Shown here piece after piece: positions 1 through 42,990 of a DNA stretch of 64,000 bases; position 1 is the first letter of the stretch, and each line of letters begins with the position of its first letter. Below the pieces are notes generated by a model that did not search any database, was not told the origin of the DNA, and was given only the letters and a program-made list of their open reading frames with translations. The position numbers were made by a program, and so were the translations under genes. Origin of the DNA: Panorpa germanica (taxonomy: Eukaryota > Arthropoda > Insecta > Mecoptera > Panorpidae); NCBI GenBank assembly GCA_963678705.1, contig OY783209.1, positions 19,329,311 through 19,393,310 on the forward strand, read 5' to 3'.

Positions 1-916
1 ACAATCTGCAAAAGCAGAACGTGAAGCATTAGAAGCAATAAGAAATACACCATTCCTAATGCAGTTACGTTATTCGTTTCAATCAAGTAATAATCTGTAC
101 TTAGTGCTTGACTACTTGGTCGGTGGTGATCTTTTCACTTATCGCCGTAAATTTAATAAAGAAGAAGTTAAATTTATTGTTGGCGAGGTGGTTTTAGCGC
201 AAAGACATTTGCATGGACTTGAAATAGCACATCGCGATATTAAACCTGAAAATTTGATGATTGACAACGAAGGACATGTTGTCTTGGTTGACTTTGGGAA
301 CGCTATACAGTTTTCAAAATTTGATAAAATTAAAAAAACAAAAGTATCCTACCTAATTGGTTCAGTGGAGTACATGGCCCCAGAAATAGTTCAACTTCAA
401 GAACATGGAACGGCTGTAGATTGGTGGGCTCTTGGCATCCTTACGCATGAGTTGTACACAACCTATACACCTTTTAATGCTAATTCCTAGGAAGAAATTA
501 AACAAAATATAATAACAAACAAGCCAAGTATTTACGGTAAATTACCAATTGTTGTTGCAAAATTTATAAGGCAGTTGCTGAACAAAAATCAGTACTTGAA
601 GTTGGGCTGCCTATTTGCTAAAGCAAAATTAGTGATTAGAAATGAATTTTTTAAAGGAATGGATTGGGTCGATCTTAAAAAAAAAGGGAGCCCATCTCCT
701 CTAAAACCAAAAATTCAAAATAAAGAAGATACATCATATTTTGAGACTGTGTTTACTGATGTTGCACCTAAGCATTCTGTTAGTGAATGTTTTGAATGGT
801 ACAATGAAAAGGATTTTGTGCCATTGAATAGCAACGAAGAAGGAAAAGAAAACATGAAAAACAATTGGGATAAATTCGATAAAGAAGTTTCAAATTTCTT
901 AACAAATAGAAAATAA
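1..916 (+). pseudogene. u0: MSK/JIL-1-like kinase, 5' cut by window edge, one internal stop
   Basis: The frame is open from base 2 through the HRDIKPEN catalytic loop, DFG, APE and DWW motifs, then meets TAG at 488-490 where intact units have GAA (residue 227 in u10 numbering). It continues in the same frame through the AGC C-terminal tail to TAA at 914-916. The catalytic loop reads LEIAHRD instead of LGIAHRD, a change shared with u3 and u4. Apart from the TAG no other break is visible, so the copy may have decayed recently or give a kinase shortened in the C-lobe. The start, Gly-rich loop and catalytic lysine lie outside the window. Confidence 0.9.
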
Positions 917-2069
917 GGAGAATAAATGTAAAAAAAAAAAAAAAATTTGATGTAATAGTGTTAAAATTAATTAATAAATAAACACCTATAATGCATGATT
1001 ATCAGTAAAATACGTGTATATGCAATAACTGTACGATATATTATTAAACAAAAATATTTTTGTATATTTAGTTTAAGATAGTTAAATATATTGTATTAAA
1101 CTTTAAACATTTTTTAAATATAAAATTTATTTTAACAATTATATGAGATTTTCATTTTATTTTGATTTAAAATTAATAAGTTAAAAAAATTAATTTACAA
1201 TTTAGCATTGTTGTTGCAGGATATATATATATATATATATATATATATATATATATATATATATATTTATATATATGTATATAAGTATATATGTATATAT
1301 GTATATATGTATATATGTATATATGTATATATGTATATATTTATATATATATATAAATATATATATATATATATAAATTCCTTTAAGTTATTAAGTTATA
1401 CTGCTGTATGTAGCTTTTTTGTATGACGATGTTTTAATATTGACAAAATGTACAATAATGTACATAAATTAAAAAATAAACTAGCTAAACCTGAGCACGG
1501 TTCAGTTTGACATAAAATAAACAAGACTCCGCATAACCGAAAAGACACTAAAGTACAAAATATCTAGCCAATCGATAAGACTGATTTATTTTTAAAGAAT
1601 AAGAGAATTTTTTATATTGTATGTATTTTTGTACTTATAATTTTAATGTTATGTAATAATAAATTTTTCTACGAGAATATATAGTATGTCCCGTCGGGGT
1701 TGTATTTAACCTCTAAATTTGACATTTGAAGATAGTTAGTTGATATTTTATGTTTATACGTAGAGGGCTACACGTTCAAAGCAAAGTTCATTTAAACTAT
1801 AGCATTCGACAAGGAAGGTTGTTGTTTGCAATTATTTCAACATTTGGTCATCAGAAAACTCAATTGAATTTATTGTAATTATATATTAAAATTAGAAGAA
1901 GTATTTTAAGGTAAAAATATTGTTACTGAATTTCTTAAAAATTATGTATGTGTTTTATATTTTAATATTTAAAAATTAATAATAAAATTTTTGTTACAGA
2001 AATTTCCTTAAATTATAAGAGCAGAATTCTTTTGCTACTTTTTAATATACACCTAATAAAAATTTATTA
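917..2069. other. Spacer between u0 and u1 (template for all spacers)
   Basis: No coding sequence. After the stop comes an AATAAA overlapping a run of about 16 A, then a second AATAAA within TTAATAAATAAACACC, the likely poly(A) signal. The AT-rich 3' flank ends in TTGTTGCAGG at the microsatellite. The following 5' flank holds a conserved block starting AAATTCCTTTAAGTTATTAAG, the CCCGTCGGG palindrome near 1691-1699, and a GTAAAAAT...TTACAG pair that would make an 89-nt intron ending about 70 bases before the ATG. The same layout recurs in every unit. Confidence 0.8.
1221..1375. repeat. Microsatellite of u0, (TA)n and (ATATATGT)n
   Basis: Pure TA run, then an eight-base period ATATATGT repeated about six times, then TA again with one AAA interruption. 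It marks the 3' boundary of the unit. Confidence 0.95.
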
Positions 2070-3175
2070 ATGTCTACTACAAAACTTGGTTATGAAACAG
2101 GCTGTTCAAGATTACGCTTTACTAATTTAGAAACCAGAATTTTAAACTGTTAAAAACACTTGGAGAAGGAGGTTTTGGTACAATTTCACTAGCACGAAAA
2201 CAAGGTGGTATTAATAATGGACGGTTGTTTGCAATTAAAAAAATTAAAAGAAAACAATTACAATCTGCAAAATCAGAACGTGAAGCCTTAGAAGCAATAA
2301 GAAATAGACCATTCCTAATGCAGTTACGTTATTTGTTTCAATCAAGTAATAATCTGTACTTAGTGCTTGACTACTTGGTCGGTGGTGATCTTTTCACTTA
2401 TCGCCGTAAATTTAATAAAGAAGAAGTTAAATTTATTGTTGGCGAGGTGGTTTTAGCGCTAAGACATTTGCATGGACTTGGAATAGCACATCGCGATATT
2501 AAACCTGAAAATTTGATGATTGACAACGAAGGACATGTTGTCTCGGTTGACTTTGGGAACGCTATACAGTTTTCAAAATTTGATAAAATTAAAAAAACAA
2601 AAGTATCCTACCTAATTGGTTCAGTGAAGTACATGGCCCCAGAAATAGTACAACTTCAAGAACATGGAACGGCTGTAGATTGGTGGGCTCTTGGCATCCT
2701 TACTCATGAGTTGTACACAACCTATACACCTTTTAATGCTAATTCCGAAGAAAAAATTAAACAAAATATAACAACAAACAAGCCAAGTATTTACGGTAAA
2801 TTACCAATTGTTGTTGCAAAATTTATAAGGCAGTTTCTGAACAAAAATCAGTACTTGAGGTTGGGCTGCCGATTTGCTAATGCAAAATTAGTGATGAGAA
2901 ATGAATTTTTTAAGGGAATGGATTGGGTCGATCTTGAAAAAAAAGGGAGCCCATCTCCTCTAAAACCAAAAATTCAAAATAAAGAAAATACATCATATTT
3001 TGAGACTGTGTTTACTGGTGTTGCACCTAAGCATTCTGTTAGTGAATGTTTTGAATGGTACAATGAAAAGGATTTTGTGCCATTGAATAGCAACGAAGAA
3101 GGAAAAGAAAACATAAAAAACAATTGGGCTAAATTCGATAAAGAAGTTTCAAATTTCTTAACAAATAGAAATTAA
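2070..3175 (+). pseudogene. u1: kinase with broken 5' end; open for 316 codons from 2225
   Basis: The original ATG at 2070 is followed by loss of CT (ATGTCTACTAC instead of ATGTCTCTACTAC) and a later one-base insertion with stops, so the ATG frame fails. From ATG 2225 the frame is open to TAA 3173-3175 and carries the catalytic lysine, HRDIKPEN, DFG, APE, DWW and AGC tail, but translation from there omits the Gly-rich loop upstream. Diagnostic changes shared with u5: the same 5' lesions, SVKYMA for SVEYMA, and ITTNK for IITNK. Either a pseudogene or a product lacking the ATP-loop strand. Confidence 0.85.
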
Positions 3176-3479
3176 GGAGAATAAAAGTAAAAAAAAAAAA
3201 AAAATTTGATGTAATAGTGTTAAAAGTAATTAATAAATAAACACCTATAATGCATGATTATCAGTAAAATACGTGTATATGCAATAACTGTACGATATAT
3301 TATTAAACAAAAATATTTTTGTACATTTAGTTTAAGATAGTTAAATATATTGTAATAAACTTTAAAAATTTTTTAAATATAAAATTAATTTTAACAATTA
3401 TATGAGATTTTCATTTTATTTTGATTTAAAATTAATAAGTTAAAAAAATTAATTTACAATTTAGCATTGTTGTTGCAGG

Positions 3480-42518: not shown

Positions 42519-42822
42519 GGAGAATAAATGTAAAAAAAAAAAAAAAATTTGATGTAATAGTGTTAAAAGTAATTAATAAATAAACACCTATAATGCATGA
42601 TTATCAGTAAAATACGTGTATATGCAATAACTGTACGATATATTAATAAACAAAAATATTTTTGTACATTTAGTTTAAGATAGTTAAATATATTGTAATA
42701 AACTTTAAAATTTTTTTAAATATAAAATTTATTTTAACAATTATATGAGATTTTCATTTTATTTTAATTTAAAATTAATAAGTTAAAGAAATTAATTTAC
42801 AATTTAGCATTGTTGTTGCAGG

Positions 42823-42985
42823 ATATATATATATATATATATATATATTTATATATATGTATATAAGTATATATGTAAATATGTATATATGTATATAAGT
42901 ATATATGTATATATGTATATATGTATATATGTATATATTTATATATATATATATATATATATATTTATATATATTTATATAAATA
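42823..42985. repeat. Microsatellite of u11; right end of the array
   Basis: TA/(ATATATGT)n array with two variant units (ATGTAAAT, ATATAAGT). It breaks off into TTATATAAATAAATAAAAG; the AAATTCCTTTAAGTTATT block that starts every other unit is missing, so the array ends here. Confidence 0.93.
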
Positions 42986-42990
42986 AATAA

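Follow-up and report, generated by a model that had tools for sequence, protein, structure and literature searches.

We propose, with a probability of about three in four, that an MSK retrogene lacking the second kinase domain gave rise to a gene family in the genome of Panorpa germanica, and that one member of this family was multiplied into tandem arrays whose copies evolve neutrally. One array runs through the stretch analysed here (the window, 64,000 nucleotides; C6:19329311-19393310 of a 464-Mb assembly). Diverged members elsewhere in the genome show purifying selection (eight of eight well-diverged pairs), and selection on single array copies is not detectable. The part that looks functional is the wider intronless MSK-derived kinase family elsewhere in the genome.

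Results

The kinase encoded in the window matched the Pfam family Pkinase (E 3e-51), and its best match in the PDB was the N-terminal kinase of MSK1 (E 3e-66), followed by RSK and S6K1. MSK is a protein with two kinase domains, as described in PMC4901046. The C-terminal CaMK-type domain is absent from the window unit, where the three MSK1 C-terminal-domain matches shown fall on the N-type domain. The unit continues for just ~300 bases beyond the stop codon before AT spacer begins, which agrees with the single kinase domain described in a first-pass annotation of this DNA. The MSK gene of the genome itself was located at C16:4722500-4728000 on the minus strand, and comprises the N-terminal domain, a linker and the C-terminal domain, and at least seven introns with GT..AG ends separate the exon pieces identified. 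The family loci examined are single frames from which these introns are missing.

Phylogenetic analysis was based on 31 rows, 24 of them from the family: 20 single-domain loci, both domains of a double kinase and one consensus row for each of the two arrays. The tree omits L077 (a near copy of L082) and L079, which is broken; the candidates L001, L002, L004, L005, L007 and L008 proved to be kinases of other kinds, and L003 coincides with L040 at one S6K locus. The MSK side was separated from RSK2 and S6K with support 99/98, and the genome's own MSK grouped with the intronless family (97/97). The family alone formed one group at 94/93, just below the 95 mark of the tool, and at 97/93 in a tree without the own MSK. 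The affinity to the N-terminal kinase of MSK claimed in the first-pass annotation is therefore borne out by both the PDB match and trees that include RSK and S6K. Our sampling of the family covers at least 21 loci and ~16 diverged lines, with one locus carrying two such domains in one frame. The locus L082 (C3:27251000-27253600) is a 764-codon single frame of two tandem N-type MSK-like kinase domains and has close copies both at C3:20.01 Mb and on C11.

Residues matching PKA K72, E91, D166, N171, D184, D220 and R280 are kept in all 24 family rows, and the catalytic residues are complete in both array consensus rows. In the double kinase, Asp replaces K168 in both domains. The activation-loop site, whose column placement is approximate, is Ser or Thr in three of the 24 rows, with one gap, and the consensus of each array has Tyr. 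In the genome's own MSK the site is Ser (aligned by eye); the human MSK residue is likewise a serine, and the 1vzo chain shows Asp there. The lack of the MSK activation-loop Ser/Thr from most family members suggests that their regulation has changed. Most rows with the tail printed stop soon after the hydrophobic-motif region, before a second domain would begin. The closest known kinases are MSK1 and MSK2 and, presumably, Drosophila JIL-1. MSK1 is the closest solved relative; the array kinase agrees with MSK in tree position and keeps the catalytic residues, but lacks both the C-terminal kinase domain and coding introns, carries Tyr in place of the activation-loop Ser/Thr and has an altered hydrophobic motif.

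With one unit as the query, blastn and tblastn identified twelve kinase units in the window, all on the same strand and head-to-tail from position 1 to ~42,990, as the first-pass annotation had reported. Units are ~2.26 kb long, each with one plus-strand kinase frame, and an AT microsatellite lies between them. An intact frame of 368 codons, counted from the first ATG, is present in three of the twelve: U10 (36149..38404, coding part about 36843-37949), U11 (38459..40717, the reference unit, with a coding part of 368 aa at 39153-40259 and AT spacer at its end) and U12 (40718..42989, the last unit of the stretch, coding part about 41412-42518). In these three units the coding part is open and without introns. 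Of the 12 units, 11 extend over the region of a predicted intron in the 5' UTR, and all 11 have it, bounded by GT..AG (38993-39083 on the plus strand in U11); the earlier description of the gene as intronless is thus valid for its coding part only.

Stops, frameshifts or deletions have broken the other nine units. U1 (1..1375) is cut by the window edge and has a stop in its coding part, three stops being found in the whole genomic copy. The short units U2 (1376..3584) and U6 (18230..20347) share an identical early frameshift, which lies near codon 20 in U2 and leaves the remainder open there (349 aa frame). Three long units carry a Helitron insert: U3 (9081..12890) with two frameshifts and one stop, U7 (24056..27844) with a frameshift and a stop, and U4 (12888..16210), which is truncated at its 3' end and contains stops. 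U5 (16249..18232) is missing its first 240 bases, is preceded by the last 45 bases of the insert, and has a 34-base deletion as well as stops. In the short unit U8 (27842..30093) the stops lie beyond the kinase core, and the short unit U9 (30091..36126) is split by a copia-like element and has a 44-base deletion in its coding part. All of these units are on the plus strand.

The window gave no match to Rfam at the gathering thresholds and none with ARAGORN. The coding part of the window units has a strand bias, with 32 G-to-A variants among 214 G and 10 C-to-T variants among 163 C on the coding strand. Beyond the array, a 182-codon open frame with an ELM2 domain lies at window 60244-60789 on the minus strand; it is presumably CoREST-like, and may be another processed gene copy. 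The three short repeats at 57970-58203, 58274-58537 and 61049-61243 are related to one another, occur in both orientations and are probably a small mobile element.

The array around the window covers ~0.5 Mb of contig C6, extending far past the window on both sides. Genome-wide, a kinase protein query gave at least 111 scored matches: at least 54 on C6 (19.15 to 19.66 Mb), at least 33 in a second array on C13 (16.06 to 16.29 Mb), and at least 24 in small groups on seven other contigs. The total is a lower bound, as the search scores the best candidates only and recovered 8 of the 12 window units. A 301-base unit flank as query returned 183 first-look candidates, and the best 40 of the 183, which were scored, are all on C6. 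Among the full-length matches scored, those without stops were 9 of 34 on C6, 20 of 28 on C13 (20 of 24 in the C13 core) and 2 of 11 elsewhere.

Besides the arrays, a genome search with the MSK1 domain revealed that other chromosomes carry numerous kinase frames, 40 to 53% identical to the query and mostly stop-free. Tandem groups from other family branches occur at C7:3.04-3.16 Mb and C1:16.05-16.12 Mb; in the Pkinase search, five of the 11 matches on C7 (near 3.1 Mb) contained a stop, versus none of the six on C1 (near 16.1 Mb). Near-identical kinase clusters at C3:27.25 Mb and C11:0.08-0.24 Mb lie near two chromosome ends and may reflect recent exchange. Exact (TTAGG)6 or (TCAGG)6 is absent from the assembly. 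Its PKA frame appears close to fly PKA, which fits an insect. No close relatives were confirmed in viral-contig and genome-contig collections.

To measure selection on the array copies, single-site changes relative to the consensus of the copies were compared with a neutral expectation built on the copies' own mutation spectrum; columns near indels were included, and two cases, a double change (U10) and a doubled change (U8), were scored as stops. The window copies carry 117 variants, 25 silent, 83 missense and 9 stop, against 23.5, 84.3 and 9.0 expected. For the two arrays we used the best-scoring full-length copies, which are free of indels. The corresponding counts were 42, 150 and 19 on C6 (22 of 34 full-length matches; expected 44.3, 151.1 and 15.6) and 14, 35 and 2 on C13 (14 of 28; expected 12.2, 35.1 and 3.7). 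Five of the 22 C6 copies are the window units U1, U8, U10, U11 and U12, and the window and C6 tests therefore overlap. Missense-to-silent ratios were 0.93 (0.59-1.51) in the window, 1.05 (0.74-1.51) on C6 and 0.87 (0.46-1.75) on C13, the last interval being still compatible with a ratio near 0.46. In none of the three sets (window copies, 22 C6 copies, 14 C13 copies) was a missense deficit significant. Variants per site in the window units were 0.103 in the coding part versus 0.084 and 0.075 in the flanks.

Stops were unevenly distributed on C6, with one in the seven intact copies versus 5.3 expected and 18 in the broken copies versus 11.4; the low count in the intact copies follows from their having been picked for intactness. 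Similarly, none of the 21 variants private to U10-U12 is inactivating, an outcome with a chance of about 0.05 in a group that was itself chosen as intact. The first-pass annotation had offered an effector and a germline gene among the possible roles. Maintenance of such a gene by selection on individual copies is unsupported in the window, as the copies vary as neutral sequence does and 9 of 12 are broken.

The picture differs for the family elsewhere in the genome. All eight well-diverged pairs (22 to 36% nucleotide difference), which share rows, partly overlap and so are not independent, have a silent excess over the neutral expectation (p 0.006 to 3e-8). Their spectrum-corrected ratios of 0.52 to 0.66 are probably too high, as multiple hits are uncorrected; Nei-Gojobori ratios are 0.23 to 0.43. 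The purifying signal was not significant in four young pairs (C16, C1/C40, C3/C11 and the C6/C13 consensus).

Discussion

We consider it unlikely that the arrays are a functional multicopy kinase, in which the intact pool, above all that of C13, would supply a high dose in some tissue such as the testis and the broken copies would be tolerated waste. The stop-free matches of the C13 core and of C6, the complete catalytic residues of both consensus rows and the retention of the predicted 5' UTR intron are consistent with such a role, but the missense deficit is not significant in either array, and the good preservation of C13 is explained mainly by its youth (mean divergence between copies 0.90%, versus 2.09% on C6). 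The intact copies are likeliest dispensable copy by copy.

The arrays also invite comparison with Stellate and Suppressor of Stellate of D. melanogaster, where, according to PMC7874207, tandem units related to the CK2 beta subunit have an AT-rich part and inserted elements, and a Helitron is suggested to have taken part in amplification. A selfish or silencing system of that kind, with a young, intact array set against a decayed, transposon-laden array making small silencing RNAs, would fit this outline anatomy of kinase-related tandem units, AT-rich spacer, inserted elements and a Helitron. It would also fit the orientation of the C13 array, in which the 18 minus matches reach 16.217 Mb, stopping short of 16.218 Mb, and the 15 plus matches follow, with 5' ends facing each other, so that the head-to-head halves could form a hairpin RNA. 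We nevertheless give this possibility little credence, as neutral drift accounts for the arrays without silencing or drive. The Stellate units are related to a regulatory subunit, and the window units encode a catalytic kinase domain; judged against PMC7874207 and PMC10618873, the comparison is an analogy of anatomy only. Lower still we place a Stellate-like conflict system built on an active kinase, in which intact C13 copies would have a germline role, perhaps on chromatin in the manner of MSK, and would be repressed by small RNAs from the decayed, transposon-laden C6 array and the head-to-head C13 halves. Nothing in the tests that we ran supports effector, germline or selfish roles for the window array.

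Mobile elements are nested throughout the array. A larger Helitron occupies the AT spacer after U2 (3585..9058, minus strand, ends approximate and set by eye) and matches Pfam Helitron_like_N and PIF1, with Rep and PIF1 helicase pieces. The ~1.55 kb Helitron insert of U3 (9320..10871, plus strand) contains a helicase fragment (Pif1_2B_dom) and has TC...CTAG ends between A and T, set by eye. Copies 98.3 to 98.4% alike occur in U4 and U7 also, and this distribution, with the insert's tail in U5, indicates that the Helitron entered one unit and was then amplified along with it. An LTR retroelement with gag and zinc knuckle lies in the spacer of U6 (20347..23928, plus strand), and the copia-like element of U9 (31975..35799, minus strand) encodes RVT_2; their LTRs are identical over 597 and 203 bases, respectively, indicating that both insertions are recent. 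Capture and spread of the kinase by a Helitron, which the copies in three units and the tail in a fourth might suggest, is very improbable: the Helitron has its own ends, and the short units covering the place show an uninterrupted site, so that it entered a pre-existing unit. Although long tandem arrays are difficult to assemble, an assembly artefact is scarcely credible, and the copies reported earlier are upheld, as the window units differ pairwise by 0.60 to 3.22%, which is far above chance and more than an assembly duplicate would show, and bear unit-specific insertions and deletions.

For the preferred reading, that of a retrogene family with neutral arrays, the founder would most likely have been a processed copy of MSK from which the second domain was missing. 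Intron loss and tree position suggest that, in an ancestor of P. germanica, the genome took up a copy of a spliced MSK transcript lacking the second kinase domain. An A-run 13 bases past the stop codon is only suggestive and a target-site duplication was not found, so the case for retroposition rests on intron loss. The retrocopy would then have founded the single-domain family across many chromosomes, and one member would have come to sit within a unit bounded by AT microsatellites. This unit would have multiplied into the C6 and C13 arrays, probably by unequal exchange, as suggested by the head-to-tail arrangement of the units, by the truncation at the U4/U5 junction and by the insert that was amplified too. 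Since amplification the copies would have drifted neutrally, the older C6 array now being mostly broken and the younger C13 array largely open; transcripts and kinase may come from some of the intact copies.

As in other insect retrogene families, these loci lack the introns of their parent gene and many are open; they differ in that a single parent domain is spread over at least 21 sampled loci and ~16 diverged lines, with one double-domain frame. A report of such a kinase family was not found among the papers listed first in literature searches, which does not establish its absence from print. A signalling kinase whose activity usually depends on control by a second domain and on phosphorylation appears to have radiated here as single-domain retrogenes. 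As most members are without the usual activation-loop acceptor, the family offers a natural experiment on what an AGC kinase must retain if it is to remain useful. The other fate is seen in the arrays, where a gene of this kind has become a tandem repeat, and an older and a younger array may be compared within one genome.
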